From Flexibacter flexilis DSM 6793 (lineage in GTDB: Bacteria; Bacteroidota; Bacteroidia; Cytophagales; Flexibacteraceae): DNA of 64,000 nt. Under the pieces are notes generated by a model that saw only the letters and a list, made by a program, of their open reading frames with translations, ran no database searches and had not been told where the DNA came from. Below are positions 24,254 to 40,511 of this stretch, piece after piece (position 1 is the first letter of the stretch; each line of letters begins with the position of its first letter). The stretch covers positions 317,854 through 381,853 of the forward strand of contig NZ_FOLE01000002.1 in the NCBI RefSeq assembly GCF_900112255.1, written 5' to 3'. Position numbers and translations under genes: made by a program.

Positions 24254-26371
24254 TTAACCAAACTTATAGCGCAACTGCACCACCAAATCCGTGTCCTTGT
24301 TGCCTTGTTTTTGTTCCAGACCCGAACCCACCGTATTTACGTCGCGGTAGTGCGTGCGGGCAATGCGCAACCACATTTCTAAGCGGCGCGTAATGCCGTA
24401 ATTGGCTAACAGATAAGCTCTTGTGCCTCGTCCGTAATAGGCAGGAATCGCAAAAGCGTACAATACGTTTTTCTCGTAAGCGTATTGGCGGTTGTTGTAG
24501 TCGTCTGTTTGGAAAATAGCCATGCGTACACTCACGTCGAGGCGCGAAGTTGGCTTTACTGTAATGTCCTGAATAATGGCGTAGCCCTGCGTGCGCGGAC
24601 GGCCTTCTTGCTCCCAGTCGCTCCATTGTACTCTGGTCTTGAAACTAATGTATTCAGGAGCTTTGTAATCCAAATTAATGGCATAATTGCGGCGTGTAGT
24701 CGGCACTAAATAATCGATGCGCGTGTCGTTGCTGGTCAGGTTGCGGCCTTTGGTTTCGCTGCGGAACTGCCCAAAAATCGTGATGCTGCGCGATGGCTGA
24801 TACGTGAGGCGCGCCAAATATTCGTTGCCTTCGGCTGGCGCGTCGGCCTGATACGAAAGCCAAGGGAATTTGAAACGGTCGTAATACACGGCCAATGTCC
24901 ATTTTTTGATTGGGCGCAATTTCAAGCCCCAATAAACGCCTTGTTCGTTGGTGTTGGCCGTAGCCTCGCCGAAAGCGTTGGAATAAAGCGCGTGATAATC
25001 GCGGGAATAGTTGCGATACACCATCGACATTTCGGCTTTGGGCGAAAGACTTGACATAAAGCCAGTTACAACACCTTTGCCGCCACTTTCCGAAATGGCC
25101 GCTTCTCCAAAAAAGTTAAAATTTTGCCAGTTGTACGAACCCGCCACGCTGGCATTGCTATTCTGTTTGCCCGAAAAAGCAAATTGATTGTAGGACGTGG
25201 CATCGCGCTGCAAAGGCACGCTATAACGCATACCCGTCGCCAAAACGCCCAGTTCCAAATTGCGGTCTTTGCTGCGATAAATGGCATTTGCGCCTGCGAT
25301 GTCTTCGGTAGTGGTATGTTTTTTGGCTAATTCGCTTGCCGTACGATGAAAACCCGTAATATTTACGCTACTGATATAATTTTCTACGTTGTCGTTGTCG
25401 ATGGTATCGGTGGCCGTTTGGACGCTTCCATCTACTTTTTTATGGGAAAGAAAAGCCGTTACATCTACGCGGCCAATGTTGTAAGTAGCGGCCGCACCTC
25501 TGAAAAATGTCCCTTCCAGCACCGAAGTAAACGGCTTGATACCCAAGTTACTACGGCGCACCGTCCCGACAGTTTCCGCGCCTTTGCCGACGGCAAAACC
25601 TGCCGAAAGCACAAGCCCTTGTCCGAATTGTACTTGGTAGTCGCCTATCGCAATTTTTTTCCAACGACCTTTATTTTCCAAAAAAAGATGCGCCGACATA
25701 AAGTCAAAACCGTATTGTTTTTTGTCGGGATTCCAAGTGAACTGCTCGCCTGCGTCTTTTTCCATCGTAAAACCCAAACTAAAATCTTTCGGGTGATTGA
25801 TGCGATAACGCGCAAACCATTTATTTTGGCCGCCCAAATAACGCTGATTCGGTTGGCCTTGCGAATTGCTGTCGGCGGGCGTGTAGCCTTTTTGGTTTTC
25901 CAAAGAACGTGAATATCTGACAATCAGTGTGTTATTTTTTTCGGTTCGGATACGCTGCCAAAGCGGACGACCGTCGGAAGCAAAACCATCATCACGCACA
26001 TAGGTAAACGGCATGAGGTTATAAATCGTGTTCATGTCCATTTCTGGCACAACCTGCAACTCATACACAGACAAAAAACTGCCGTATTTGGCGCGATACG
26101 TGAGTATGCCGTTGATTTGCGCCTCCGAAAGCACGTAGAGCGAGGCCAAGTCTTCGCGGTCGGCGGTGTTGAGGTTCAGGGGATTGGTATAAAGCAACAA
26201 CAATGATTCGTACATATCCTCGTAGTTGGCCGATGCGTCTTGCAACTGAAATAGGTTTTCGACAAAACGGTCAAGTTCTATTTCTTGGCGCGGATATTCT
26301 TGCCCAAACACCTGATTTTGAAGCGATAAGCCCAATGCCAACAAACCGATAAAACTGTATTTTTTTATCAT
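24254..26371 (-). CDS. outer-membrane beta-barrel protein with N-terminal helix-hairpin-helix domain
   Basis: A 705-residue exported protein with a signal peptide (1-23, ending VFGQ). Residues about 65-125 carry two HhH units (LNLNTADREDLASLYVLSE, then GILTYRAKYGSFLSVYELQV) like the DNA-binding ComEA domain. The rest is a long run of alternating amphipathic strands with aromatic girdles ending in QLRYKFG, the pattern of an outer-membrane beta-barrel. It overlaps the upstream PorV/PorQ-like gene by 4 nt (ATGA). Homologues are common in Bacteroidota as uncharacterised ComEA-like proteins. A role in moving or binding DNA at the outer membrane is an inference. Confidence 0.82.
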   Translation of the reverse strand: MIKKYSFIGLLALGLSLQNQVFGQEYPRQEIELDRFVENLFQLQDASANYEDMYESLLLLYTNPLNLNTADREDLASLYVLSEAQINGILTYRAKYGSFLSVYELQVVPEMDMNTIYNLMPFTYVRDDGFASDGRPLWQRIRTEKNNTLIVRYSRSLENQKGYTPADSNSQGQPNQRYLGGQNKWFARYRINHPKDFSLGFTMEKDAGEQFTWNPDKKQYGFDFMSAHLFLENKGRWKKIAIGDYQVQFGQGLVLSAGFAVGKGAETVGTVRRSNLGIKPFTSVLEGTFFRGAAATYNIGRVDVTAFLSHKKVDGSVQTATDTIDNDNVENYISSVNITGFHRTASELAKKHTTTEDIAGANAIYRSKDRNLELGVLATGMRYSVPLQRDATSYNQFAFSGKQNSNASVAGSYNWQNFNFFGEAAISESGGKGVVTGFMSSLSPKAEMSMVYRNYSRDYHALYSNAFGEATANTNEQGVYWGLKLRPIKKWTLAVYYDRFKFPWLSYQADAPAEGNEYLARLTYQPSRSITIFGQFRSETKGRNLTSNDTRIDYLVPTTRRNYAINLDYKAPEYISFKTRVQWSDWEQEGRPRTQGYAIIQDITVKPTSRLDVSVRMAIFQTDDYNNRQYAYEKNVLYAFAIPAYYGRGTRAYLLANYGITRRLEMWLRIARTHYRDVNTVGSGLEQKQGNKDTDLVVQLRYKFG

Positions 26372-27234
26372 AAATCAGCGGAAGGATTTGAAGGTTTGGC
26401 AGATGTTTTACGCGACAAAAATTTGTAGCTCAACGAAAAAGCGTGCGACCAACCCAATTTGGTGTGCGTGGTGGCGGCATAGTCAAAGTCAAAAAGGCTT
26501 TGTTTTACGCCTATTCCAAAAAAGTTAGAAAAATTGTTGGTGTTGATGCCCGTGCGCAAATACACTTTCTTCACGATTTCGTATTCTACACCCGCTTTTA
26601 CACGTGCTTTGTAGTCGATGTCTTTTTCTGTTTCGATGTTGAGCATCAACGTTTTAGTTGGCCTGTACGACAAACCTGCCTTCATCACGGTTGGGAGGCG
26701 TTCGTTCTGATAATCAGCGATTTTGGCTTGCGTAACATTGAAAATATGTGCGCCAATGAGCAATTCGGGCGTAATTTCGGCCACACCGCCAAACTGAATT
26801 CCGAACACGCCTTTGCTGCCGATTTCGGACACGGAAGTTTGCAAATAATCCACCTGAATCCCTAAGGAAACGCCCGCGATTTGATGGCCGTATCCGATTC
26901 CTGCGCGGCTTTGACTCAACAAATCGTCCCCGAAACGCTGCACATTGACGGCAATCACGCCGTTTTTGTTTTCGCGAAGCGGCGCGGCAAAGCCTGCAGC
27001 CACAGTCGTAAATGATTTGTTATTAAATTTATTTCCCACAAAAACACCTACTTCTTTTTGCTTTACGCCAGCCAAACCGCCAATGTTATTGAACATAGAC
27101 CAAGAATCGCGCAGCGTAACCGAAGCGTTGCCCATGCCGATAGCGCGTGCGCCAATCGGAGCGTTGTCGTGGCCAGCCTGTGCCGAAGTGTGCAGCAGCA
27201 CACCCAAACCCAATAGTTGTAGAAATTTTTTCAC
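26368..27234 (-). CDS. PorV/PorQ-like outer-membrane beta-barrel protein
   Basis: A 288-residue outer-membrane protein of the PorV/PorQ/UPF0164-like family: APIGARAIGMGNASVTLRD-W-MFNNIGGLA right after the signal peptide (about 22-50) is the classic start, followed by repeated amphipathic strands (VGVFVGNKF, GIGYGHQIAGVSLGIQVDYL) and a C-terminal FSLSYKF. I place the start at a GTG (27234) giving MKKFLQLLGLGVLLHTSAQA as signal peptide; no ATG is available and an upstream TTG would add an unhelpful basic leader. Some relatives are T9SS components, but this pairing with the HhH-barrel suggests a different job. Confidence 0.8.
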   Translation of the reverse strand: MKKFLQLLGLGVLLHTSAQAGHDNAPIGARAIGMGNASVTLRDSWSMFNNIGGLAGVKQKEVGVFVGNKFNNKSFTTVAAGFAAPLRENKNGVIAVNVQRFGDDLLSQSRAGIGYGHQIAGVSLGIQVDYLQTSVSEIGSKGVFGIQFGGVAEITPELLIGAHIFNVTQAKIADYQNERLPTVMKAGLSYRPTKTLMLNIETEKDIDYKARVKAGVEYEIVKKVYLRTGINTNNFSNFFGIGVKQSLFDFDYAATTHTKLGWSHAFSLSYKFLSRKTSAKPSNPSADL

Positions 27235-27397
27235 CAATCCGTGTAGTTTTGAAATCAAAGCATTCAGGCAAATGTAATAATTTTCGGCTTACACACGCCA
27301 TGCCGCCTTTTTCTTATTCTTTGGAAAACAATTGCATAATATACAATATCATTTCTGGCCACAATAGGCATTTACGCTACTGAAATACAGTTATTTA

Positions 27398-27501: not shown

Positions 27502-28380
27502 TTAATGACTGACTACAAACTTTTGGGTGGCAATATTGTCCCCGTCCGAATATTGGAGCAAATACAAACCATTCGGGAACTGGCGTGTATCAATAAAATC
27601 GCCTACAAAAAAAGGATTTTCATAGACAATTTCCCCCATGATGTTAGTAATCTGCACGTTGGCTTGTGATTTGTTGCTTTTGCTATTGATTCGTAACTGG
27701 TTGGCTACGGGATTGGGGAATACAGAAATGAGGTGATTGTTTTGGCGAGGCGATACTGCGGAAAGACGATCATAAATAATTATGTTATCAATTAACCAGC
27801 CGTCATGTGGCGTAGTTCCATTGTCTGTAATGTAAGTGAACCTGAACAAGATGCTATCGGTATTAAGAGAGATGGGCATATTGCTACTCATATCCCATGC
27901 CGTTAAATTCATTTCAAAAGTGTTCCAGTCCTCTGTACTACCTTTTAACGATGGTTTATTATAAAGCCAATAAATAGAATAAGTAGTGTCTTCTGCGAGT
28001 ACATCTACCCAATGCGCACCGCCATCAGGGGATACTTCTATTTTTCCATAGTCCGTAGAATCTCCATCTAATTTATAATCAAAAAGCAAATCATATCCAT
28101 ATGGCCCACCATGATTTCGGGCATGACCAAAGTAAAAAGTAGAAGTATCATTGGCGGGGACTGGGTTAAGGGAATCTGTAACCAATCCTCTTTCATGCCA
28201 ATCTTCTGTAAAAATGGTTTTATTCGGTTTCCCAATTTGCCATATACAATTGGGGTTGCTGATAGTATCTCGGTGTATTTGTAACATAAATGAATAATCA
28301 AAATCATTATAAAATACCCCTTGAGCGAAAGTATCGCTGATAAACAAGCTAAAAGCAAGGAAGAATAAGAGTTTTTTCAT
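27502..28380 (-). CDS. T9SS-exported protein with MAM-like domain and C-terminal sorting domain
   Basis: A 292-residue secreted protein. Signal peptide 1-19 (ending DTFAQ). The body (DWHERGLV, TSTFYFGHARNHGG, WNTFEMNLTAWD, DSILFRFTYITDNG, DGWLIDNIIIYD) reads as a jelly-roll of the MAM/immune-inhibitor-A type often found on surface proteins. The last 75 residues (SVFPNPVANQLRI, QITNIMGEIVYE, FPNGLYLLQYSDGDNIATQKFVV) are a type A T9SS sorting domain, so the protein is exported and anchored or released at the cell surface. No catalytic residues recognised. Confidence 0.87.
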   Translation of the reverse strand: MKKLLFFLAFSLFISDTFAQGVFYNDFDYSFMLQIHRDTISNPNCIWQIGKPNKTIFTEDWHERGLVTDSLNPVPANDTSTFYFGHARNHGGPYGYDLLFDYKLDGDSTDYGKIEVSPDGGAHWVDVLAEDTTYSIYWLYNKPSLKGSTEDWNTFEMNLTAWDMSSNMPISLNTDSILFRFTYITDNGTTPHDGWLIDNIIIYDRLSAVSPRQNNHLISVFPNPVANQLRINSKSNKSQANVQITNIMGEIVYENPFFVGDFIDTRQFPNGLYLLQYSDGDNIATQKFVVSH

Positions 28381-28399
28381 GGTTTGAATAGTTAAATGT

Positions 28400-29854
28400 T
28401 TAGAAATTAATAATAAGTTTTTTGCGGTTTATGAGTGTGCCGTCTGGACGCTGCCACTCTGCGGCATAAACACCAGTTGCCAGACCTGCCACAGAAACCA
28501 AAATATGATTTTCGGAGAAAACTACTCGTTTTTGCTCACGGCCTACTATATCTCGTAAGACGAAAACCCCTCCAGCGTACGGAACACTTACATTTACTAC
28601 TGATGCGGCAGGATTAGGCCATAGATTTATAGGCGGAGCTTTTGCTATTATATCTTTTGTACCAACCAACCAACTACTATCCGTCTCTGGCAAATACGGC
28701 AAGCCAATTCCGCCCACTTTCATAAAATATAAATCAAATGCTGCTGGATTCGGGCTATCTATATAACCCGCAAAAACCGCATCGCCATCCCCTGTGAAGG
28801 CGATAGAAGATATTGTCTTCGTTTGCGGGTATGCTCCCCCAGTAAAATTCGTTGACCACAATACACTACCATTCTGTTTGTATTTCGTTAAAGTAGTATT
28901 ATATACATTATTCACCATCATTCCCGCTCCTAAGACAATCGAAGTATCACTGGTAATGTATGCAGGAAAACAATTACCCACTTGTTCGGGTTGCTGCCAT
29001 ACCAAATTATAATTACTATCATATAAGCCTACATAACGCCTTACTGGATTTGTCCAAACAGAACCCCCTATCACCAAATACTTCTGATTCGGAAGTTGCT
29101 GAACATACGCATTGTATATCTTCGCATACGTCGGGCGAGTGTAAAAAATATGCTGCCGTATCACATTACCACTCGTATCCAACTCCATGCCCCATATCGA
29201 ACTATTCACACTACCTGATACCCAATAATGACCATTCGCCATACCCTCCACATAATAGCCCTCTGTGTAATAGCCCAAATTAAATGACTTGGCCCATACC
29301 AAATCTCCATTGCCCCTATAACGACCCACATACGCATCCCATGCCATGTTAGGGGTGCTGCTAAACGTCGTCTGACCCACCACTAACAAATCTCCATTGC
29401 TCATACTCTTCCCCCTACAATTGGAAACAACATTCCCATTATTGCCCACCATATACGTGTGTGTATAATGTGCTAACACCACCCCATTGCTATCCAGCTT
29501 CAACAAATGCTGCTGGTAATCAAATGCACGTTCCTGTGCTACTATCCAATAATGAAGACCATCTCTATCCTGCGTAATCGAGGCTGCTTCGGAGGTAATT
29601 ATATTCAAATTCTTGACCCATGCCGTATCCCCATTCGACAACAATTTCCCTACATACAAGCCTCGATAACCACAATCTATGCCGAATTTGCACAATGAAC
29701 CTGTAAACAGATAATTTGAGGATTGAGGCATCGGAACTATCGCATCAGCGTAGTCCATATAATAAATATTATATTTCTTCTCCCACAATACCGATTGAGA
29801 ATACAATACCTGATGTAACAGAATGCTTAATAATATCAGTAATAGTTTTTTCAT
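28400..29854 (-). CDS. T9SS-exported beta-propeller-like protein
   Basis: A 484-residue secreted protein with signal peptide 1-19 (ending LYSQ) and a C-terminal T9SS type A sorting domain (NLWPNPAASVVNVSVPYAG, VLRDIVGREQK, LATGVYAAEW, INRKKLIINF). The middle has repeated blades of the LYDSNYNLVW / LVVGQTTFS type with G-D-W-K patterns, like delta-60/SBBP beta-propeller proteins. It looks like a paralogue of the 600-residue protein at 36815-38617. It has a long leader from a promoter at about 30107-30136. Function unknown. Confidence 0.83.
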   Translation of the reverse strand: MKKLLLILLSILLHQVLYSQSVLWEKKYNIYYMDYADAIVPMPQSSNYLFTGSLCKFGIDCGYRGLYVGKLLSNGDTAWVKNLNIITSEAASITQDRDGLHYWIVAQERAFDYQQHLLKLDSNGVVLAHYTHTYMVGNNGNVVSNCRGKSMSNGDLLVVGQTTFSSTPNMAWDAYVGRYRGNGDLVWAKSFNLGYYTEGYYVEGMANGHYWVSGSVNSSIWGMELDTSGNVIRQHIFYTRPTYAKIYNAYVQQLPNQKYLVIGGSVWTNPVRRYVGLYDSNYNLVWQQPEQVGNCFPAYITSDTSIVLGAGMMVNNVYNTTLTKYKQNGSVLWSTNFTGGAYPQTKTISSIAFTGDGDAVFAGYIDSPNPAAFDLYFMKVGGIGLPYLPETDSSWLVGTKDIIAKAPPINLWPNPAASVVNVSVPYAGGVFVLRDIVGREQKRVVFSENHILVSVAGLATGVYAAEWQRPDGTLINRKKLIINF

Positions 29855-30106
29855 GTGAGATACTTATTAAAAACGGCTCTTAGCCCAACGACAAAAAAGT
29901 TGTTGGTTAACAGAAAGTAGTAACTTAGGAAGCTACATACGAACAAGCCATCTCACGGATAGCCAAGAGAATTATTGTTCATATTAAAGTGAGATAAGGT
30001 TGATTAAAAATGAATGTACACACGCTCACTTGATTCTTAGCAAACCAAACGAGGAAAATAAAAGGCCGTTGAAAGATGTTTTAGAAGGCAATCGTACTAT
30101 ATACAG

Positions 30107-30136
30107 CAAATATACAAAACGCGAACAAAATAACAA
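30107..30136 (-). promoter_or_regulatory. promoter TTG-N19-TATATTTG
   Basis: Read on the minus strand: TTG (complement of 30134-30136), 19 nt, then TATATTTG (complement of 30107-30114). It fits the Bacteroidota consensus and points at the 484-residue T9SS gene. Confidence 0.65.
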
Positions 30137-30197
30137 CACTCAGATATAGCCTTTTTTTTAATCGAGCAGCCGATAGAATACTGTATTGCATATTGCA

Positions 30198-30205
30198 TAA
30201 CTTTG
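30198..30205 (+). promoter_or_regulatory. candidate -7 element of folK (TAACTTTG)
   Basis: Exact TAnnTTTG box 42 nt upstream of the folK ATG; no clear -33 TTG at the right distance. Confidence 0.5.
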
Positions 30206-30247
30206 CGGGGCAGCGGCAGCATTACAGGGCAGTTTTTAGCAAACAAA

Positions 30248-30751
30248 ATGACACAACAAACAACTGATTATCATTGGCTTATTGGCGGAAACTTGAGCGA
30301 CAGGCTCGACTATTTGGCGCGTGCACGTGCGCTGATGGCCGAGCAAATCGGGCAAATTCTCCAGACTTCGGGCATTTACCAAACACAGGCTTGGGGCTAC
30401 ACCGACCAACCCGACTTTCTGAACCAAGCCATTATCACGCGGTCGGCTTTGCCGCCACAGCAAGCCATGCAAGCGGCCTTGCACATTGAGCAGCAACTTG
30501 GCCGCGAGCGTCATCAGCGTTGGCACGAACGCACCATCGACATCGACTTGATTTATGCCCAAGATTTTTGTTTGGAAACCCCAAACCTCACCTTGCCGCA
30601 CCCACGCGCCCACGAACGCCGCTTTGTGTTAGTGCCTTTGGCCGAAATTAGTCCCGATTTTATACACCCGATTTGGCACAAATCCCAAGCCGAACTGTTG
30701 CAACTGTGCGCCGACACGTCTGCCGTAGAAACATTTAAATTGTTGATTTAA
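30248..30751 (+). CDS. folK: 6-hydroxymethyl-7,8-dihydropterin pyrophosphokinase
   Basis: A 167-residue folate-pathway enzyme, moving pyrophosphate from ATP to 6-hydroxymethyl-dihydropterin. It begins with HWLIGGNLSDRLDYLARA (substrate-binding GGN), has GYTDQPDFLNQA and the signature GRERHQRWHERTIDIDLIY with the catalytic R and D pair, then LPHPRAHERRFVLVPLAEI. Start set at the ATG 30248; a longer reading from an upstream TTG would add 15 non-conserved residues. It ends 11 nt before a glycosyltransferase gene. Confidence 0.95.
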   Translation: MTQQTTDYHWLIGGNLSDRLDYLARARALMAEQIGQILQTSGIYQTQAWGYTDQPDFLNQAIITRSALPPQQAMQAALHIEQQLGRERHQRWHERTIDIDLIYAQDFCLETPNLTLPHPRAHERRFVLVPLAEISPDFIHPIWHKSQAELLQLCADTSAVETFKLLI

Positions 30752-30762
30752 AATATTTTATC

Positions 30763-31857
30763 TTGAAAAAAATAATCCTGACCGTAACCACCGACATCAG
30801 CTACGACCAACGTATGCAACGCATTTGTGCCACGCTACACGCGGCAGGCTATGAGGTTTGGTTGGTGGGGCGGCTCAAAAAAACATCGTCTCCTCTACCC
30901 GATTTTCCGTACCACACGCGGCGGCTCAAATGCTTTTGGGAGAAGGGCAAATTTTTTTATATCGAATACAATATCAGGCTGTTTTTTTGGCTTTTGGGGC
31001 AAAAATTTGAGGCTGTTTGCGGCATAGACCTCGATACCATCGCGCCTGCCGTGCTGGTGGGCAAGCTCAAAGGCAAAAAAACGCTGTTTGATGCGCACGA
31101 ATATTTCACGCAAGTACCCGAACTCATAGGCCGCCCGCGCACCCAACGCCTTTGGGAATGGATAGAAAAACGCTTCGTGCCGCGTGTAGATGCTGCCTAC
31201 ACGGTGAGCGAATCTTTAGCCAAAATATTTGAAAATCAATTACATATCCCTTTCGGTTTGGTGCGTAACATTGGCACGCCTTTAGCCGTAGAGCCTGCAC
31301 CCACACCCGACAAATCGTATTTGATTTATATTGGGGCGGTCAATGCTGGGCGCGGCTTGGAACAACTCATTGAAGCCATGCAACAAATTGATTATGAGCT
31401 GTATGTATGCGGCGATGGCGACATTTTGGAAGCCCTAAAAGCCCAAGCCGTAGCGCAAGGCGTGGCGCACAAAGTGAAGTTTTGGGGATATGTGAAGCCG
31501 CAGGATTTACACCAACTCACGACCAAAGCCCGCATCGGTTATTTGCTTTTGGATAATAAAAGCCAGAGTTATTATTATTCGTTGGCCAACAAATTTTTTG
31601 ATTACATACACGCAGGCATTCCGCAGATTACCAGCAATTTTCCTGAATATCAGCTTATTAACCAACGTTACAAAGTAGCTGAGTTGGTGGAATTGCGTGT
31701 GACCGACATCGTGGCCAGTACCCAAAAGCTACTGCAAGACGAAAATTATTACCAAAAAATGGCTGAAAATGCCCGATTGGCGCAAAAAGAACTTTGTTGG
31801 GAAAACGAGCAAAAAACTTTGTTGGGAATTTGGGAAAAAGTGTTGGGAAAAAGCTAA
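30763..31857 (+). CDS. GT4-family glycosyltransferase
   Basis: A 364-residue GT-B glycosyltransferase starting with TTG, 11 nt after folK. N-terminus KKIILTVTTDISYDQRMQRICATLHAAGYEVWLVG is typical of a GT4 subgroup; the TTG start is forced because the conserved beginning lies upstream of the first ATG. Further motifs: DAHEYFTQVPEL, YIGAVNAGRGLEQLIEAM, and SLANKFFDYIHAGIPQI with the conserved glutamine-rich donor loop. Likely surface polysaccharide synthesis; substrate unknown. Confidence 0.85.
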   Translation: MKKIILTVTTDISYDQRMQRICATLHAAGYEVWLVGRLKKTSSPLPDFPYHTRRLKCFWEKGKFFYIEYNIRLFFWLLGQKFEAVCGIDLDTIAPAVLVGKLKGKKTLFDAHEYFTQVPELIGRPRTQRLWEWIEKRFVPRVDAAYTVSESLAKIFENQLHIPFGLVRNIGTPLAVEPAPTPDKSYLIYIGAVNAGRGLEQLIEAMQQIDYELYVCGDGDILEALKAQAVAQGVAHKVKFWGYVKPQDLHQLTTKARIGYLLLDNKSQSYYYSLANKFFDYIHAGIPQITSNFPEYQLINQRYKVAELVELRVTDIVASTQKLLQDENYYQKMAENARLAQKELCWENEQKTLLGIWEKVLGKS

Positions 31858-31935
31858 AAACTTGTTCGTGATTTAGTGCGTTTTATAGTATATTTACTGC
31901 TGTTGTTTCCCTTTTAACCAAGTTGTTTTTATACT

Positions 31936-32181
31936 ATGTTCTTTCATTACTTACTAATCACGACCTTGAGTATGATAGGGCTACTTTGGTTGCTCCTAAA
32001 GCTTTCGCGTAGAGGAAAGTTGCCACCAGACGGCGGCGACGATGGCGGCGGAGGTTTTGGCGACGACAATTTGCCGATTATAGACCTTCCCCCAGGTGCA
32101 GGACTCGACGAATGGCTTACCGACCGCATTCCCGAAACGCCAACGAGCACTATTAAACAAAAAATTTTAGAAAAAAACTGA
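31936..32181 (+). CDS. small acidic membrane-anchored protein, unknown
   Basis: An 81-residue protein with one N-terminal transmembrane segment (about 4-22), a basic turn (KLSRRGKLPP), a Gly/Asp-rich linker (DGGDDGGGGFGDDN) and a Pro/Leu-rich tail. I do not recognise a family. Its stop is 11 nt from the end of the lipoprotein gene on the other strand. Composition and a clean start suggest a real gene; confidence is moderate. A linker-and-tail on a single helix would suit an adaptor or tether. Confidence 0.55.
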   Translation: MFFHYLLITTLSMIGLLWLLLKLSRRGKLPPDGGDDGGGGFGDDNLPIIDLPPGAGLDEWLTDRIPETPTSTIKQKILEKN

Positions 32182-32192
32182 TAATCAGCGAA

Positions 32193-32411
32193 TTAATTCA
32201 TTCCTGAATGGCTGTACTTTTTGCGTTTTTTGAGCAAACCATTTTTGTCCATCCCCGTACTGCTGGTTTTGAGTTTGCCCACGCCGTCCCCGCGTTTGGT
32301 ACTGATTTGCATATCTCCACCATTGTCGGGGCAAGGATACGATTTGTTGGAGCAGGAGGCAGCCAAACCGATTATCAGAAAAGAAAGCAACAAGTGTGTA
32401 TATTTTTTCAT
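32193..32411 (-). CDS. small lipoprotein, third gene of the siaBC operon
   Basis: A 72-residue protein with a lipoprotein signal (KKYTHLLLSFLIIGLAASC, lipobox LAAS-C20), then a short polar tail ending KKRKKYSHSGMN. The start is the ATG at 32411; the codon before it is TTG. It sits 37 nt downstream of the SiaC-like gene on the same strand. Short basic-ended lipoproteins of this kind are frequent in Bacteroidota and have no assigned function. Its place in the operon is the only clue. Confidence 0.65.
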   Translation of the reverse strand: MKKYTHLLLSFLIIGLAASCSNKSYPCPDNGGDMQISTKRGDGVGKLKTSSTGMDKNGLLKKRKKYSHSGMN

Positions 32412-32448
32412 CAAAAAAACATTTTAAGCAGAACAAACAACTAACTGA

Positions 32449-32856
32449 TTACCAACGTGCTGGCAGCTCGTCTTCGTCGTCTTCGTTCACGACCATATCA
32501 ATTGGCAACTGAAGCATCATGCGAAAATCCGCGCCCACTTGTTCCATATCTTCGTCGTCTTGGTCATGAAACCATTTCACCTCCACGCGGTGGCCTTTGC
32601 CGTGCATGGTCTCCAATCGCTTCATTATTTCGAGAATATACTCCGTTGAGCTAGAATTAAAGTACGATAATTTAAACAAAAAAACGGTATTAGGAGCTGG
32701 CATCTGTACGTATTCATCCAACCACTGCAACAGAGGCATATACAAATCGTGTGCGTTTTCGGGAATGGACTTGCCGAAAAGTTCCAATACACCTGTTTGT
32801 TGGTCAAAATTTACTTTGGGAGATTTGGCGGAAGGCTCTATGATAAGCGTTTGCAT
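32449..32856 (-). CDS. siaC: SiaC-family (DUF1987) regulatory protein
   Basis: A 135-residue protein of the DUF1987/SiaC family. In Pseudomonas, SiaC is phosphorylated by SiaB, dephosphorylated by SiaA, and in the unphosphorylated form controls the cyclase SiaD. The hallmark is FKLSYFNSSSTEYILEIMKRL at about residues 61-81; S68 lies where the phosphorylated Thr68 of Pseudomonas SiaC is expected by eye. The C-terminus WFHDQDDEDMEQVGADF is also typical. It lies 87 nt downstream of the SiaB-like gene. No SiaA or SiaD is in the window. Confidence 0.85.
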   Translation of the reverse strand: MQTLIIEPSAKSPKVNFDQQTGVLELFGKSIPENAHDLYMPLLQWLDEYVQMPAPNTVFLFKLSYFNSSSTEYILEIMKRLETMHGKGHRVEVKWFHDQDDEDMEQVGADFRMMLQLPIDMVVNEDDEDELPARW

Positions 32857-32943
32857 ATAATAAATATGTGTTTCTTTGATAAGTTAAAGGCTCTATGGAG
32901 TAGGTTGTAAAACGGCAGCAAATTACTTAATTTTATCCAAAAA

Positions 32944-33489
32944 TTATTCGGCTATTTTTATCTGCATGCAAAAGAAATAATAGTCATCAGCTACGGGGCG
33001 CAGACTATATTCTATTTTTCTGCCCGACCGTCGCGCAATGTCAATCATACCAATGCCTGCCCCTGCCGTTTCAGGCGTTTTTTCCTTGTGCGTGAGTATA
33101 TGTCTATAATTTTCGCTGAGTTCTTCTTTGCTCATGGCATTGATTCTATCCAAACGAAGTTTGAGGGCTTGTGCTTTATTTGCCGTCAGATGGTTGCCTG
33201 TAATGATCAGGTAACCGTCTGGCTCATGCGTTATCATCAGCAAAGACGAATCGTCGGGGCAGTTGGTGTCCCCCATAGGATTGCGGCCATGATGAAATAT
33301 ATTTTGTAACGATTCAATGAGGATATTCAAGACTTTCTTTCGGATAGTCGGTGCCGTTTGCAGTTCGCTAAATTTGGCCTCAGCGAATTGCAAAAGCGAA
33401 GTGATGAGGTCGCCGTTTATTCGACCACGATACGATAGCATCACATTATTATCGCTCAATAAATCATAATGTTTGTGAACATCTAACAT
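32944..33489 (-). CDS. siaB: SiaB-family protein kinase
   Basis: A 181-residue HATPase-type protein kinase of the SiaB family, expected to phosphorylate the SiaC-like partner encoded next. The N-box is NILIESLQNIFHHG (E59, N63), and the G-box is TAGAGIGMIDIARRSGRKI (about 141-160). The start is the ATG at 33489; the upstream TTG is an alternative. A -7 element on the minus strand lies 70 nt upstream. First gene of an apparent siaB-siaC-lipoprotein operon. Confidence 0.85.
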   Translation of the reverse strand: MLDVHKHYDLLSDNNVMLSYRGRINGDLITSLLQFAEAKFSELQTAPTIRKKVLNILIESLQNIFHHGRNPMGDTNCPDDSSLLMITHEPDGYLIITGNHLTANKAQALKLRLDRINAMSKEELSENYRHILTHKEKTPETAGAGIGMIDIARRSGRKIEYSLRPVADDYYFFCMQIKIAE

Positions 33490-33558
33490 CAATGTACTGA
33501 AGATGGGTATAATACAAGTTTAAAGTTGTTTGTAGGTTAGGCGTATAGGATACGTGTA

Positions 33559-33566
33559 CAAAGGTA
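33559..33566 (-). promoter_or_regulatory. candidate -7 element of siaB operon (TACCTTTG)
   Basis: Complement of CAAAGGTA, an exact TAnnTTTG box 70 nt upstream of siaB; no clear -33 TTG at the usual spacing. Confidence 0.5.
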
Positions 33567-33774
33567 CAACAATAATTGGATTTATAAAAGTTCCGATGTA
33601 ATAACTTTATACAAACGACTTAATAACAAAAAGAAATCGTCTTTTTTTTGTTTTATTTTTATGAAAAAAAATGAGTTTTATCCTACAAAAATTAGCTATA
33701 CGCAAAAAAATAGTTGCTCTGACAACAAATTTAATTTGCATCAAAACAACTATTTTAAGTAAAACTTAATAAAA

Positions 33775-36624
33775 TTATTGGTTCAAAACCAAGCGTTGGG
33801 TTACTGTGCGGCCTGCCACAGTGAGGCGGCAGAAGTATGTACCCGTCGGCATGGCAGCGGCTTCATTCCAAATCAAAGTTTGCAAACCTTCCGACTGCAC
33901 GCCATCAAACAAAGTCGTTACTTTTTGTCCCAAAGCATTGTAAATCTCGGCGCGAACAGCTTGGCGGCTATTGAGCGCGTAAGCAATGTTCACTTGCCCT
34001 TCGGCGGGATTCGGATACACGACTACGCCTTTAGCCGACTGTGCTACCTCATCGGCAATGCCCGTAATTGCCGCGGTTTTTTGCATTTTTTTGGTAGAAT
34101 AAATATGGTATTCGGCAGGTTGGTAAGTAGCCGAATAGCCCGAATTTACCGTGATGCTATCGCCCGAAAAGAAGTCGTACCATTTGCCCGTAACTGGGAA
34201 GCTTGGCGATACTTGCTTGGCCGTCACATCAAAATTACCGATTACCAACACATTATTTCCGTTAGTGCCTTGCAAAGTAATTTGTTTTACGGCTACGTTG
34301 TTACCAACATTAAGCGTATAGTTAGAAGTCTCAAAAGCAGGCTCTTGCACACGCAATCGGTTCACATAACCATACACATCGTAGAGTTTTTTGCGGTTAG
34401 CATTTTGCAAATAACTCCACAAAATCGGCTTGGCATCTGTGCGGCAGTTTTCCGAAATCGTACCATTACCGCAACGGTTAATTGATTGGTCGTAACCCAA
34501 TTCCCCAAATTGCCAAATCATTTTTGGGCCGGGAACAGAAAGGAAAAATACGGCAGCCAATTCCTGACGCGAAAGTGCCACATTAAGCGTTTTTACGTCA
34601 TGGTTTGCGTTAGTAGAATTACCGTACAAGATATTTTTGTACATCAAACGCTCTTCGTCGTGGCTTTCCATGTAGCCAAAAACATTTGGTTGCTGCCAAC
34701 CGCGCGATTTGTACGAAAGCCAATCAAATCCCGAATTGGCCAACCAACCCATCGTAGATTCATTGAAATTGTAGTTAGCATTGCCCCAAAGCATCATGCC
34801 ATAATTCGCCAAAACGGTTTCTTCGCTATTGTTAGCAAAATGCTCCATAATCACGTAAGCATTCGGGGAGGCAATTTGAATTGTATCATAAATAGCTTTC
34901 AGGATGTTGATACGGGATTGGTCATAATTGCCCCATGCCCCCATATCAGACGTATAGTTTTGCGTAAAACCTTTCGACAAATCGAAACGGAAACCATCTA
35001 CTTTGTACTCTGACAACCAATATTTTAACACATCAGCCACATATTTTTTAGTATCGGTACTTTCGTGGTTAAAATCGTAACCCACATTCAAAGGGTGTTT
35101 GGCATCAGGGTTAAACCAAGGGCTGTTGGTTGCGGGTTTGTTTTGGCTGGCATCCCAGTACATTTGCACCATTGGGCTCATCCCGAAAGCATGATTCAGC
35201 ACCATGTCCAACACCACCGCAATACCACGTTTATGGCATTCGTCTATGAGCATTTGCAAATCTTTTTTGGTGCCATAGGCTTTGTCGGGAGCCATGTGGA
35301 ACATTGGGTTATAACCCCAACTATCGTTGCCTTCAAACTCCATCACGGGCATTAGCTCAATGGTATTGATGCCCAATTTTTGCAAATACGGCAGCGAATC
35401 CATCACGGTTTTGTAACGGCGGCTGGCCACAAAGTCGCGGATATGCAGCTCATACGCCACAATATCCGTTTTGGCAGGGCGCGTAAAATTGTTGCTTGTC
35501 CAAGTGTAAGGCGTTTGGGCAGTTTGTAAAATACTAACTACGCCTGTCGTCTTGCCCACGGGGTAGGCTTTGAGGGCTGGATAAGTCGTGGAAGTAATGT
35601 ATTGGTCGTTGTACGGATCAAGAATTTTCTCGCTGTACGCGTCGGCCACTTTGAGCTGATTGTCTATCAAATATTGGTAGGCGTATTCTTGTCCCGCATT
35701 TAAGTTGTTGATTTGTAACCAATAGCGTTTTCCGTCGGGCGTTACGTTCATGTAATAGGCCGTATCTATTTGCCAGTTATTAAATTCGCCCAACACATAC
35801 ACAAAACTTTTGAGCGGAGCATAAAGGCTCAGAATCGCGGAGTTATTGCTCAAATACGTTACACCGTTGGGCTTTGCACCTGCTGGCAAAGCGGCTATCG
35901 TTGCGGGTTTGTGTACCACACACGTAAACGAATCGGCTACGCTGGTTGTGCCATTTGTTCCGATGAGTTTTACCTTTTTTACTGCCGAGCCTGTCGCCGT
36001 TGGCAACGAATAATTTATTACAGAATCAACCGTTTGCGCCACTTGTGCACCGTTTACAAGTAACGAAAGTGTTGTGCCTGCCTTTTTAGAAGCAACGCCT
36101 TTTACAGACACCACATCGCCACTGTTTACAAGCATTGAGCCGCCATTGTTGAGAGGCATGGACAAAGCCGCCCCAAACTGGCCAGCCTGATAAATCGGCA
36201 TAAAAATATCGCCGTTTTGGTCAGTTTTGCCCGTAGCCGAACCACTGGCATTGCGAAATACAAAAGCTAAGCGGTAAACAGTTTGGTTGGTAATACCATA
36301 ATAATTTTTGATGTGGAATTTGATGCGATGCTTGTTGTTTCCGATGGGTGTCATCAGGACGCTATCAGCCGCTACACCCCACGTACCTTGTACCAAAGAC
36401 CAACCCGTCGCGTTGGGGCCGCCAGTTACTACACCCGTATGCACATACACAGGCGAAGTGTTTACAAGTCCCTGATTGCCTTTGGTTGCGTCAAAAGTTA
36501 CGGTGAGCGAATCGTTGATAGTCGGGAAAAGTGGCGACCACGTAATCACTTGCGCCGAAGCGGGCGCAGCCATCAGCCCAGCGAGTGCAAGGCCTAAGCA
36601 TTTAAGCTTGTTAATAATTTTCAT
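33775..36624 (-). CDS. T9SS-exported GH13 alpha-amylase-family enzyme
   Basis: A 949-residue secreted glycosidase from the ATG at 36624 (signal peptide ending APASAQ; an upstream in-frame start would add 15 residues before it). After a DUF4961-like N-terminal region and a CBM48-like domain (about 255-345) comes a GH13 barrel: DMVLNH (about 473-478), DGFRFD with nucleophile D548, VIMEHF with acid E594, and MESHDEERL with D656. The C-terminus (VVYPNPAEGQVNIAY, MPTGTYFCRLTVAGRTVTQRLVL) is a T9SS type A sorting domain. It probably acts on starch or glycogen outside the cell. No Sus-type transport genes are adjacent. Confidence 0.92.
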   Translation of the reverse strand: MKIINKLKCLGLALAGLMAAPASAQVITWSPLFPTINDSLTVTFDATKGNQGLVNTSPVYVHTGVVTGGPNATGWSLVQGTWGVAADSVLMTPIGNNKHRIKFHIKNYYGITNQTVYRLAFVFRNASGSATGKTDQNGDIFMPIYQAGQFGAALSMPLNNGGSMLVNSGDVVSVKGVASKKAGTTLSLLVNGAQVAQTVDSVINYSLPTATGSAVKKVKLIGTNGTTSVADSFTCVVHKPATIAALPAGAKPNGVTYLSNNSAILSLYAPLKSFVYVLGEFNNWQIDTAYYMNVTPDGKRYWLQINNLNAGQEYAYQYLIDNQLKVADAYSEKILDPYNDQYITSTTYPALKAYPVGKTTGVVSILQTAQTPYTWTSNNFTRPAKTDIVAYELHIRDFVASRRYKTVMDSLPYLQKLGINTIELMPVMEFEGNDSWGYNPMFHMAPDKAYGTKKDLQMLIDECHKRGIAVVLDMVLNHAFGMSPMVQMYWDASQNKPATNSPWFNPDAKHPLNVGYDFNHESTDTKKYVADVLKYWLSEYKVDGFRFDLSKGFTQNYTSDMGAWGNYDQSRINILKAIYDTIQIASPNAYVIMEHFANNSEETVLANYGMMLWGNANYNFNESTMGWLANSGFDWLSYKSRGWQQPNVFGYMESHDEERLMYKNILYGNSTNANHDVKTLNVALSRQELAAVFFLSVPGPKMIWQFGELGYDQSINRCGNGTISENCRTDAKPILWSYLQNANRKKLYDVYGYVNRLRVQEPAFETSNYTLNVGNNVAVKQITLQGTNGNNVLVIGNFDVTAKQVSPSFPVTGKWYDFFSGDSITVNSGYSATYQPAEYHIYSTKKMQKTAAITGIADEVAQSAKGVVVYPNPAEGQVNIAYALNSRQAVRAEIYNALGQKVTTLFDGVQSEGLQTLIWNEAAAMPTGTYFCRLTVAGRTVTQRLVLNQ

Positions 36625-36748
36625 TTTTAATTTGGTTTGTTGTTTGACAGTGATTTTATATTGCGCCAAAACTACAAACTTGATAGCAAGAATGCTAATT
36701 TGGACAAAATAGTGATTTTTCTATCAAAATCAGACCACATTCAAACAA

Positions 36749-36787
36749 AAACGTCGTGACACTTCTCCATAAAGCACCACGACGTTT
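36749..36787 (-). terminator. rho-independent terminator
   Basis: Ten-base perfect stem AAACGTCGTG/CACGACGTTT with a 19-nt loop, followed on the minus strand by TTTTTGTTTG, after the 600-residue T9SS gene. Confidence 0.85.
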
Positions 36788-36814
36788 AGTTGAAAATACT
36801 AATCAAAATCTCTA

Positions 36815-38617
36815 CTACTTCACTACCGACACTTTCCGCACGCCAAGCGGCGCACCGTCAGCATACACTTGCAACACATACATTCCTGCCGCCAATGGCG
36901 CAGTGTTCAGGCGCAACATATTGCCTGTGAGGGACATTTCTTGTTCTATCAATACTTTGCCTGTCCCGACTTCGCTCATGCGTACCACCGCCGACTTACA
37001 AGCTGAAGGCAAACCGTAGTTTACACTTACGCTATTGCTCGCTGGGTTCGGGTAAACCTCTCCCACAAACACGCCTTTCTGTACAGGCTTGTTGCCTACG
37101 ATGCCTTGCGGCGTAACAATCGCTGTGAGCGTATCCTTGCAGCCCCAAAAGTTCGTAATCACCAGCGTAACACGAAGGCCGTTAGGGTGCGCCGAAGGGC
37201 TAATCTGCATATTGATGGCCGTGTCGATACTTACCGTACTGCCGCCAATCAGCCATTGGCAATCTACGCTATCCTGCATGGCCATGCCCGAATTGGAAGT
37301 GTTATAGAGCTGCAAAGTATCCCCCACCCAAGAACCTGTAAAGTTGGCTTGCAAACTATCCGAACAATAATCGGAAGGCTGCAAGAAATCCGCTACACCT
37401 GTGTATTTGGCCATGTAATAGTCGCCTGGCTGAGCAAATACATAAGGTAAACGTGGCGCAGCTCCTACTACCATCAAATCATTATTCTCGGTTACTATCA
37501 AATCGTTTATTTTGTAAGCTAATTTATAGGTGGCACTTAAAGCAGAATCAGATAAATATTTACGCCAAAGTTCTTGGCCTGTAATCAAATTTACTTTCGC
37601 CATAAAAGGATAAGTTACAGCTATATTCGTAGGTTCTCGGGTACTGCCCATCATAATCACAGACGTATCCCGCGCTTCAATGGCACGTAAATAGTCAGAG
37701 CCTACCACCGCATTACTATCCAAGCGAGACCATAGTATATTAAAATTTGCATCCGTGCGCGCTATATACGGCAAATAATGGCTACTTGTACTGGAGGTAT
37801 CTATCCCTCCATGAAAAATAAAACCGCCATCACGCAATGGCCATGTACGAACAGCCTTTAAATCAGCAAGGAGCACGGGTGCTTTTTGCTGCATAATTAC
37901 CCCACTGGGGACATCTATAAACATCATACGAGTATTTTCGTAATAACCGTCCCAGTAACTGATACACACACGGTTGTTGGGGTACAGGCCAGACGAGATT
38001 AAGGTCTGATTCGTCGGCATTGTGTAGATTTGCTGCCATACCAAATTGCCCGAACCATCTATGCGCATGGCCATCATATCAACGTCTTGGCAATTACTAA
38101 GCACTAACTGAACATGGCCTACCAGCACAAACCCTCCATCTGACATAGGATGTACGGCACTGCCAAACAAATAGTTACAGCCCTTCATAAATTCGCGGTG
38201 CTCCAAGATTTGACCCAAGCTATCTACTAAAAATACACCCAAACCCCGATTATTCGCCGATGATGCTCCATGTTCAAAAACAACGATTGCCCAAAAATTA
38301 CCATTAGGGGCTGGAGCTATGCCCCAACCTTCTGATTCCTGATAATAATTTACAAAATTTTGGTGCCAAAGCGTATCCCCGTTACTGTCTTTAAAGGCTA
38401 ATATTTCTGTAGTACGAGTATAGGTATTGGTAGTTGGGTTAAGACAATAGGCATAGTCTGAAACGCCTACCCAAAAACGTTTGTTCGGGCTTAATGTGGC
38501 CGTACGAATAACTTGAGAGCTTGGCAAAGGGTAGGTATTTTCCCAGACCAATGTGCCTTGCCCATAGCTAAATACATAGCCACAGAGCAGTAAGAAAAGA
38601 AGGATTAGTTTTTTCAT
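36815..38617 (-). CDS. T9SS-exported beta-propeller-like protein (paralogue)
   Basis: A 600-residue secreted protein, start at the ATG 38617 (signal peptide LILLFLLLCGYVFSYGQ). The repeated blades (GGFVLVGHVQL, GNLVWQQIYTMP, GGFIFHGGI, LPYVFAQPGDYYMAKYTG) are like those of the 484-residue protein at 28400-29854, making the two likely paralogues. A PKD-like stretch precedes the C-terminal T9SS sorting domain (EVYPNPASNSVSVNYG, PLAAGMYVLQVYADGAPLGVRKVSVV). A palindromic repeat element lies just upstream. Function unknown. Confidence 0.84.
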   Translation of the reverse strand: MKKLILLFLLLCGYVFSYGQGTLVWENTYPLPSSQVIRTATLSPNKRFWVGVSDYAYCLNPTTNTYTRTTEILAFKDSNGDTLWHQNFVNYYQESEGWGIAPAPNGNFWAIVVFEHGASSANNRGLGVFLVDSLGQILEHREFMKGCNYLFGSAVHPMSDGGFVLVGHVQLVLSNCQDVDMMAMRIDGSGNLVWQQIYTMPTNQTLISSGLYPNNRVCISYWDGYYENTRMMFIDVPSGVIMQQKAPVLLADLKAVRTWPLRDGGFIFHGGIDTSSTSSHYLPYIARTDANFNILWSRLDSNAVVGSDYLRAIEARDTSVIMMGSTREPTNIAVTYPFMAKVNLITGQELWRKYLSDSALSATYKLAYKINDLIVTENNDLMVVGAAPRLPYVFAQPGDYYMAKYTGVADFLQPSDYCSDSLQANFTGSWVGDTLQLYNTSNSGMAMQDSVDCQWLIGGSTVSIDTAINMQISPSAHPNGLRVTLVITNFWGCKDTLTAIVTPQGIVGNKPVQKGVFVGEVYPNPASNSVSVNYGLPSACKSAVVRMSEVGTGKVLIEQEMSLTGNMLRLNTAPLAAGMYVLQVYADGAPLGVRKVSVVK

Positions 38618-38641
38618 GAGATGGTGAAGATTAAAACAAAA

Positions 38642-38714
38642 CAACCCCACCTAAATCCTCCCCGAAGGGAGGACTTCAAGTACCACTCCCCAGTGAGGAG
38701 GTCGGGTGGGGTTG
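38642..38714. repeat. 73-bp palindromic (REP/BIME-like) repeat
   Basis: Outer arms CAACCCCACC (38642-38651) and GGTGGGGTTG (38705-38714) are perfect inverted repeats. Inside lies a perfect CCTCCC-CGAA-GGGAGG hairpin (38657-38672) and a second CCCCAGTGAGGAGG region. The GC-rich composition is quite unlike the surrounding intergenic DNA. It has the look of a dispersed palindromic repeat; I found no second copy in this window. Confidence 0.65.
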
Positions 38715-38735
38715 AGTCGTTGGTTTTGAATGAAA

Positions 38736-40511
38736 TTATTTAATCACCGCTAATTTACGGCTTTGGACTACTTTGCCGTCCAGCAATAGCACATACGGAT
38801 AAATACCTGAGGCCAAACGGCTTAGGTTTACGGTTACGTTGCCTTCGGTTTCTTGCAAAGTTTGGGTAAAGACCGCCTTGCCCGAAACGGGTGCATAGAC
38901 TACGATTTGGGCTTTGCCTACTGCCTCTTCGGGTAGTGTGTAGCCTATTTGCGTTTCGTGGGTAGCAGGGTTAGGGGCATTGTTCCCCAAAGTAGCCTGT
39001 ACTGATGGTGCCGCTTGGCGATTTAGAATACCAGCTGCTGTGCGACAGGTTTCATTAATGCCATCTATTTCACACGATAGAAAAGAAATAGACAAGCTAT
39101 TGCTTACATCCTTTACATTCTCATTTTTATATCTTCTGTACTCAATATTCGAAGCTAAAGAGCTATTGATAAAGGTAAAGTTCGTGGGCAAAACAAGATT
39201 ACTATGAGACCTCAGGTTACGCACCTCATTGCCGTTAGGGGTGTTGCCCGTAGCATCGCAACCGCCTAAGATGGAATTAAAGCCATCAAAATTTACAGCC
39301 ATATTCCCTTGCAAACGGATACCTGTGCGGGCAAGGCTGGTCGTACTTACAAAGTCGTTGCAGCGAATACCCAAACTCACATTGCTGGCATCTGTGCGGT
39401 TGATATGAATACCTGTGAGGTTGTTGGTAAAGACCACATTGTTAATGGTATAAGAACCTTTTGTACCTTCTAAAAGGATGCCTGTTTTTAGCCCAACAAA
39501 TTCAGACTCAACGGCATTTATATCGCCATTAAAACCATAATAACCAATATGTTGGCTGTCTGTTTCGGTCATATTTACACCACTCAAATCACTTTGCCCG
39601 TGTTCGGAAATCATCCCAAAACATTGCCCTGCGGCGGGGATTTTAAAAGGCAGTTGCCGACTGCCAAAGCTACTGTTTTTCATTTCTTTTAGGTTAAAAT
39701 CACTTTGAATAACATTTAATTCGCCGTTTCTGACATAAATACTAGACACTTCGCAGTTACCAAAAACGCAATGTTTGATGTTTATTTTGTGTTTTTCTGT
39801 TACAAACATACTGACTACGGCCTTATCAAACAAATTATTTTCAAATTGTTTAGATAATAAATACAATTCTTGACCGTCGGTGTTTTTCAGGTGCATTTGA
39901 CTAATAAAATGCTCGTCAAGGCTCACCGAATCCAAAGGCATTTTCATGGCCGAAGGGCGGCTACTAAAGTTGTTGTGGCGGAGTGTGTCGTGGCGGCCAG
40001 CGAGTTGCAAACTCACATAATTGTTTCGGAAAGTTGAGTTTTCGACTTTCAAGCAGCTTTCAGTAAGTTGTACAATTCCGTGGTAACTGTCGGAAATGCG
40101 GCAGCCGTTTAGCTGCAAAACACTGCTGCTATCGGCCACATACAAGCCGCCCCACATCCCCGAATCGGCGGCAGTAAGCATACAATTTTGCAGTATTACA
40201 TTTGCTCCGCAAAGTTGTATGTTCGTGCCATAGGCCGTGCCACCAGCCTTGTGTATATTTTTATTATACTGTAAATCAGCTATTTGATTGCGTCGAAAGT
40301 TGCTTTTGAGCAAAAAACGCACATTTTGTAAACGAATATTTCCACTCAAAGTAATGTCGGCGGCCACGTAATAAGTGCGCGTGGAGCTGTGTGGTAAACT
40401 GTCCGTGTAAATTAGCCTGTCAAAGCCAAGCACTGTTGCATTTTGGGGTGTTTGGGCACGAGAAATGATGGCCACGAGGCCGAAGAGTAGTAGCAAGCAC
40501 AGTTTGCGCAT
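38736..40511 (-). CDS. T9SS-exported right-handed beta-helix protein
   Basis: A 591-residue secreted protein with signal peptide 1-20 (ending SRAQ). The body has many short repeats of the C-x-ISDSYHGIVQ / VVFTNNLTGIHINRT type (residues about 80-430) that look like coils of a parallel beta-helix, often carbohydrate binding or pectate-lyase-like. The C-terminus (TLGNNAPNPATHETQIGYTL, LASGIYPYVLLLDGKVVQSRKLAVI) is a T9SS sorting domain. No catalytic site recognised. Confidence 0.84.
   Translation of the reverse strand: MRKLCLLLLFGLVAIISRAQTPQNATVLGFDRLIYTDSLPHSSTRTYYVAADITLSGNIRLQNVRFLLKSNFRRNQIADLQYNKNIHKAGGTAYGTNIQLCGANVILQNCMLTAADSGMWGGLYVADSSSVLQLNGCRISDSYHGIVQLTESCLKVENSTFRNNYVSLQLAGRHDTLRHNNFSSRPSAMKMPLDSVSLDEHFISQMHLKNTDGQELYLLSKQFENNLFDKAVVSMFVTEKHKINIKHCVFGNCEVSSIYVRNGELNVIQSDFNLKEMKNSSFGSRQLPFKIPAAGQCFGMISEHGQSDLSGVNMTETDSQHIGYYGFNGDINAVESEFVGLKTGILLEGTKGSYTINNVVFTNNLTGIHINRTDASNVSLGIRCNDFVSTTSLARTGIRLQGNMAVNFDGFNSILGGCDATGNTPNGNEVRNLRSHSNLVLPTNFTFINSSLASNIEYRRYKNENVKDVSNSLSISFLSCEIDGINETCRTAAGILNRQAAPSVQATLGNNAPNPATHETQIGYTLPEEAVGKAQIVVYAPVSGKAVFTQTLQETEGNVTVNLSRLASGIYPYVLLLDGKVVQSRKLAVIK

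Follow-up and report, generated by a model that had tools for sequence, protein, structure and literature searches.

Two described outer-membrane machines have a barrel of the FadL/PorV family bound to a big partner. PorV is bound to Sov (SprA) in the type IX secretion system (T9SS), as described in part of PMC8754138, and BamG, which is homologous to FadL and bound to BamA, is apparently essential according to passages of PMC12578637 and PMC12611786. Here we describe a pair of genes in a 64-kb stretch of the 4.25-Mb genome of Flexibacter flexilis DSM 6793 (contig NZ_FOLE01000002.1, positions 317,854 to 381,853; hereafter the window) whose products may form a comparable assembly. Both genes encode outer-membrane barrels on the minus strand and, in the open reading frame list of the window, are joined by a 4-nt overlap at 26368-26371, which confirms what a sequence-only reading of this DNA had reported. 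The upstream gene encodes a PorV-like protein; the downstream gene encodes a larger barrel with an N-terminal helix-hairpin-helix (HhH) domain. We tentatively read the two genes as encoding one outer-membrane complex, a large pore assisted by a FadL/PorV-family barrel, and put this at close to an even chance. The features of the pair are as follows.

26368..27234, minus strand: gene for an outer-membrane protein of PorV/FadL fold; GTG start, signal peptide, 14 strands and a short N-terminal hatch-like part
24254..26371, minus strand: large HhH-barrel gene, 705 aa; ATG start, signal peptide, HhH domain and large beta-barrel
26368..26371, minus strand: ATGA stop/start overlap of 4 nt, from the sequence
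26006..26182, minus strand: HhH domain, residues 64-122, hairpin glycines lost (HHH_3 match and alignments)
26126..26134, minus strand: tip of hairpin 1, residues 80-82, V-L-S where ComEA has G-I-G (alignment)
24257..25939, minus strand: large barrel domain, residues ~145-705, outside Pfam and NCBIfam families (family searches, predicted structure)
25331..25354, minus strand: G-F-H-R-T-A-S-E stretch, residues 340-347, between strands (conservation and model)

The longest mechanical reading frame of the PorV-like gene has a TTG start (26368-27258, minus strand, 296 aa); we read the GTG at 27234 as the better start, since it gives a cleaner signal peptide. The ATGA overlap is consistent with translational coupling of the two genes.

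The order of the two genes recurs across the phylum. Among the best 80 named relatives of the large barrel, mostly from Cytophagales, the PorV-like partner gene lies upstream on the same strand in 73 loci, while the seven loci in which no partner was seen include Raineya and two of Emticicia, and one of them is at a contig edge. Of the 73 linked loci, 43 allow an overlap of the ATGA type and 5 an overlap of 1 nt, while the start lies less than 60 nt away in 16 and farther away in 9, seven of which have more than 1 kb between the two genes. In our phylum sample of 296 genomes, for which all counts are of genomes and not of evolutionary events, positions of the large barrel were listed for 150 genomes. 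The partner match was directly upstream of the barrel in 95 of the 130 genomes that were tabulated, elsewhere in 25 and absent in 10; the other 20 are all from family f18 and without partner match (f8 and f18 stand for Flavobacteriaceae-like and Chlorobiaceae-like, labels inferred from SprA scores). Direct linkage is therefore seen in 95 of the 150 listed genomes and in 24 of 33 families, and two f14 genomes beyond these 150 also carry barrel and partner side by side. As the same order recurs in 73/80 named loci and 95/150 listed genomes, the pairing is ancient and not due to chance. This strongly supports the coupling of the two barrels that the sequence-only reading had proposed, together with the co-occurrence described below. 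Its conservation throughout Bacteroidota holds only in part, because the genes are apart in 25 of the listed genomes and 30 gave no partner match in a single-sequence query.

In six Pontibacter loci (L044, L046, L051-L053 and L119) a reverse-strand gene of ~415 aa splits the operon. The genes upstream of the pair differ by clade within Cytophagales: a 484-aa gene in 25 loci versus another gene in 24. From their sequences we read these as D15/Omp85-like (484 aa) and S46-peptidase-like, respectively. No constant third partner of the pair was found in the Cytophagales neighbourhoods.

The two genes depend on each other in one direction only. In total, the large barrel gave matches in 228/296 genomes, 203 of them at E <=1e-25. 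Eleven of the 25 weaker matches were inspected, of which seven were confirmed and four were not barrels. Weak matches with a barrel frame beside the partner are those of G004, G014, G039, G156, G223 and G259, with G073 diverged; the f13 matches (G001, G006, G011 and G016) reflect an HhH domain on the PorV-like protein and not a barrel. At least 210 of the 228 matches are solid. We rechecked by profile 38 SprA-bearing genomes outside f8, plus G284, in which no match had been obtained; this added barrels in G066 and G101 and a diverged pair in G018, and gave weak frames only in G085 and G240. About 62-65 of the 296 genomes truly lack the large barrel. For f8, a draw of 60 genomes (only three of which are among the 29 f8 genomes of the sample) was searched, and no barrel-profile match extended past model position 149 of 667.

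The partner profile (E<=1e-20) gave one match per genome in 144/296 genomes, and the barrel is present in 140 of these 144; in G066 a full-length barrel frame lies next to the partner. Among SprA-bearing genomes the partner was found in 134 of the 162 that have a barrel match, versus 1 of the 67 that do not (none once G066 is moved), and among the 66 SprA-less genomes with the barrel it was found in nine, all f18 and weak. Some genera of f5, f6 and f35 lack both genes, whereas other genera of these families have both. Retention of the partner is thus nearly confined to genomes with the barrel, also when the genes are unlinked, while the barrel can occur without the partner.

Two loci came to light beside these counts. 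At 5533-8481 of L193 (G018) a diverged 575-aa HhH-barrel-like frame adjoins a diverged 406-aa PorV-like frame, both missed by single-sequence searches. In L196 (G115:C3:39497-49904), from a T9SS-bearing genome without the partner, frames of 203 and 83 aa match the C-terminal part of the barrel and look like a decaying copy.

The large barrel does not follow SprA. SprA was found in 229/296 genomes and DUF4835 in 228/296, with gaps that nearly coincide in the listed part, and the Flexibacter genome has its own SprA gene at C2:168985. A barrel match is present in 66 of the 67 genomes without SprA (63 of 64 from f18, plus three), whereas all 29 f8 genomes of the sample have SprA, against no barrel match in the 60 searched f8 genomes. 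We therefore rejected the large barrel as a core part of the T9SS. The PorV-like gene does show a tie to this system. In 17 of 40 diverse regions (loci L130, L147-L150 and L152-L163) a DUF4835 gene is divergent to it, and the two DUF4835 proteins that were scored both match NCBIfam PorD (248 and 279 bits, cut-off 170). PorD is described in parts of PMC8754138 and PMC10994853 as a T9SS translocon protein. All 17 regions belong to deep lineages outside the window's class, where the intergenic region between the two divergent genes is conserved as an arrangement; it was unseen in 13 regions of that class. Since the partner occurs mostly with both the barrel and the T9SS, and its gene is divergent from porD in deep lineages, the small barrel may connect the large pore with the type IX secretion envelope.

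Structure predictions, made on single chains, support a barrel fold for both proteins. The model of the PorV-like protein (pLDDT 92.4) has the PorV/FadL fold, and its top two Foldseek matches are the T9SS PorV chains 8gl6_F and 6h3i_F; 8gl6_F aligns with a VIA Z of 30.9 and a root-mean-square deviation (rmsd) of 2.4 over 258 residues. FadL-family and PorV chains align at Z 27-31 and rmsd 2.1-2.5, in agreement with a 14-stranded FadL-type barrel, and BamG chains align at Z 25-26, below FadL and PorV. With respect to NCBIfam PorV_fam (NF033709), the protein scores 45.9 bits, under the cut-off of 90 (39.6 bits in the genome search), and its gene ranks seventh of eight in the genome. The description as PorV/PorQ-like hence stands for the fold but not for membership of the PorV family. 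The open frame is 306 aa, versus 350-391 aa for the five PorV_fam frames over the cut-off. We rejected the protein as the T9SS PorV itself, because the best PorV_fam protein of the genome is encoded at C7:85090 (402.3 bits).

The AlphaFold2 model of the large barrel, built from 76 sequences, has a pLDDT of 88.5 and a pTM of 0.85. It contains 26 strand segments of at least three residues, two of them short, giving 24-26 predicted barrel strands, preceded by a helical N-terminal part. Neither Pfam nor NCBIfam has a family for the barrel part of the 705-aa protein, as searched with the window protein and 22 diverse members; Pfam searches of the same proteins found no TonB plug domain, and Pfam gave no POTRA, Omp85 or usher domain in the large barrel. 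No T9SS sorting domain was found on it with Pfam or NCBIfam. The top Foldseek match is a chain of the MtrB complex (E 4.6e-12, 10% identity), and the FimD usher aligns at Z 17.2 and rmsd 4.3 over 377 aligned residues. Moderate Z scores are spread over several families of wide barrels (usher, MtrB and LptD were compared). No close sequence relative was found among these solved look-alikes, and ushers and MtrB gave no sequence match. Wide barrels of this kind have 24 strands in the FimD/PapC ushers and 26 in MtrB.

G340, H342, R343 and E347 are invariant in the 76-row alignment, and in a 49-row set 60 positions are at least 85% conserved, 56 of them inside the barrel. On the basis of the 24-26 modelled strands and the many conserved polar residues, a role as a wide and specific pore is more probable for the large barrel than one as a filler. 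No paper describing it was found in the open-licence literature searched. A large barrel that is widespread in the phylum, with no family for its barrel part, points to an apparently unstudied outer-membrane function.

The HhH domain was confirmed at the N-terminus of the large barrel: HHH_3 (PF12836) matches residues 64-122 with 32.3 bits (cut-off 27; 37.2 bits in the genome search). The HhH units of the sequence-only reading are, however, a single HHH_3 domain of two hairpins, and the NCBIfam ComEA models score 19.3 and 17.2 bits, against cut-offs of 152.35 and 53.1. In ComEA, DNA is held by the GIG of the hairpin and by the lysine that follows it; in Vibrio cholerae G60V/E gives a non-transformable strain whereas G60A is tolerated, K63A lowers transformation ~250-fold and K63E abolishes it (from parts of PMC3879209). 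These residues are lost in the barrel family. Hairpin 1 has GxG in 0/120 homologues and any glycine there in 11/120, and hairpin 2 has GxG in 5/120. At residue 85, the equivalent of K63 by an alignment to ComE operon protein 1 that we matched to V. cholerae numbering, lysine or arginine occurs in 0/121 (one row gapped), and Q85 is invariant in all 80 named loci. The net charge of the domain is -4 in the window protein and -2.3 on average in the 80 named proteins, and is +2 or more in 5 of 39 diverse HhH domains. By comparison, a separate 318-aa ComEA-like protein with three HhH units is encoded elsewhere in the genome; these units and one other HhH unit have net charges of +2 to +6, and one ComEA-like unit retains K-G-I-G. 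Domain and barrel are conserved to a similar degree (mean identity 0.55 vs 0.50 in the named set, 0.31 vs 0.30 in the diverse set), suggesting that the domain is under constraint, apparently not for DNA contact.

An HhH domain also occurs on the other partner. In all 14 examined PorV-like orthologues from f13, f16, f29 and f50 (383-463 aa; loci L182, L184, L185, L187 and L202-L211) it is C-terminal, with profile E values of 2e-8 to 3e-18. In these families the barrel and partner genes are apart or the barrel was not found; in f16, f29 and f50 the separate barrel bears its own HhH as well. No HhH domain was found on the 73 named partners, which are mostly linked, nor on 18 further partner genes. 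Its presence on either partner fits a role in protein contact or docking.

One operon, one-sided dependence, the folds and the shared HhH make a third FadL-assisted pairing the simplest reading. The large protein would be the pore, of 24-26 strands, and the small, minimal FadL/PorV-family barrel would bind its side and stabilise, gate or load it. Preceding the barrel in sequence, the HhH domain is expected in the periplasm or the lumen, where it would dock a protein or gate the pore. A former DNA-binding fold would now contact protein, holding the partners together or gating the pore from the periplasmic side. We infer the physical complex, this gating or docking role and a macromolecular cargo from these patterns. 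Several observations weigh against such a complex. The partner is not obligatory, as 85 of the 228 genomes with a barrel match lack it. The four f13 genomes (G001, G006, G011 and G016) carry the partner with no barrel seen near it, and the HhH domains on the two partners could be separate acquisitions of a common domain. Moreover, only a small number of independent losses (f18, f12 and G002) underlie the tie to the T9SS; nine f18 genomes without SprA give weak PorV-like matches (75-101 bits), and the partner is absent in 28 of 162 genomes that have both SprA and a barrel match.

The same tie could mean that the pair is an accessory of the T9SS, with the PorV-like protein as cargo shuttle and the large barrel as docking or exit station. 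The PorV fold, the PorD neighbour and the presence of the partner mostly in SprA-bearing genomes with the barrel all agree with this, as does a statement in part of PMC12618676 that specialised T9SS shuttles are often encoded beside their clients. However, the large barrel is there in nearly every genome that lacks SprA and missing from the 60 f8 genomes although f8 has SprA, the partner is short for PorV_fam, and the large barrel carries no T9SS sorting domain, so we regard this account as doubtful. A nutrient or lipid transporter, with a large specific porin and a FadL-type hydrophobic channel alongside, is less probable still. FadL is among the top folds of the partner, canonical FadL carries hydrophobic molecules (part of PMC12611786) and the large barrel resembles wide channels, but the large barrel is mostly present in one copy per genome across ~50 families, unlike a substrate-specific nutrient porin, and no TonB plug domain was found.

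The sequence-only reading had seen a hint of DNA uptake or surface DNA handling, in which the large barrel would pass DNA and the HhH domain would pull it as ComEA does. HHH_3 is indeed over the cut-off in the window protein and matched in 22/22 diverse members, and the genome has no DUF5689, which is found in the Riemerella surface factor. One passage of PMC8459023 places homologues of the proposed outer-membrane DNA channel only in Flavobacteriaceae, where the large barrel seems to be missing (f8), in which case other lineages may need another channel; another passage calls them widespread in Bacteroidetes, especially Flavobacteriaceae. Three of the four genomes without a ComEC match also lack the barrel, whereas the fourth, G260, has a barrel match. 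These three (G167, G246 and G270) are a single f38 clade with no ComEC match, no barrel and no partner. The Riemerella screen reported in part of PMC8459023 found a periplasmic protein with three HhH units, together with a different proposed barrel, to be essential for transformation, and such a three-unit protein exists separately in the Flexibacter genome. ComEC is kept in 56 of the 60 barrel-free f8 genomes, although f8 may use another channel. Given the lost glycines and contact lysine that V. cholerae ComEA needs (PMC3879209, in the part cited above), the negative charge, the separate ComEA-like gene and the retention of ComEC without the barrel, DNA uptake by the large barrel is unlikely, and as an explanation of the pair we consider it the most improbable of all. 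Tempting as such a reading may be, the presence of an HhH domain on a surface barrel does not in itself argue for DNA uptake.

In the window, a thymidine kinase gene adjoins the pair downstream. Upstream lies a gene whose product matches a T9SS sorting domain above the cut-off, followed by a second with a sub-cut-off match. They belong to a run of T9SS-type cargo genes on the minus strand (27502-40511), in which Por_Secre_tail is over the cut-off at 27502-28380, 33775-36669 (also an alpha-amylase match) and 38736-40511, and below it at 28400-29854 and 36815-38650. Farther on, a TonB-receptor-like barrel is encoded at 44306-47074 (minus strand), with carboxypeptidase-regulatory, plug and OMP_b-brl_3 matches.

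Compared with known systems, the window protein shares with ComEA and other HHH_3 proteins the HhH fold, an N-x-N-T-A start and the Pfam match, but its domain is acidic, lacks the hairpin GxG and the contact lysine and is fused to a barrel. GspK, the minor pseudopilin of type II secretion, has an HhH-like domain that sits outside the cytoplasm, and gave weak matches in 8/22 (NCBIfam) and 6/22 (Pfam) barrel members; the window protein, in contrast, is a barrel and no pseudopilin (12.3 bits, cut-off 130). The FimD/PapC ushers and MtrB are likewise wide barrels, yet the window protein has no usher domain and no sequence match to them. SprA-PorV is similar in that a 14-stranded PorV/FadL barrel stands beside a much larger one and the best Foldseek matches of the partner are PorV. 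It differs in that the large partner here, of 705 aa, is not SprA and is found in 66/67 SprA-less genomes, and that another gene of 402 bits encodes the best PorV_fam protein. BamA-BamG also places a FadL-family barrel on a big outer-membrane machine, and BamG aligns to the window partner (Z 25-26). Here no POTRA or Omp85 domain was found in the large barrel, BamG aligns less well than FadL and PorV do, and the pair is absent from many lineages. It is conceivable, though we hold it to be unlikely, that the pair is a third FadL-assisted translocon beside SprA-PorV and BamA-BamG, present in much of the phylum, without a name in the searched family libraries, and moving protein, glycan or, least likely, DNA, with a repurposed HhH domain on one or the other partner for docking or gating. 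In that case, the big outer-membrane machines in this phylum would have a general accessory in the FadL-family barrels.

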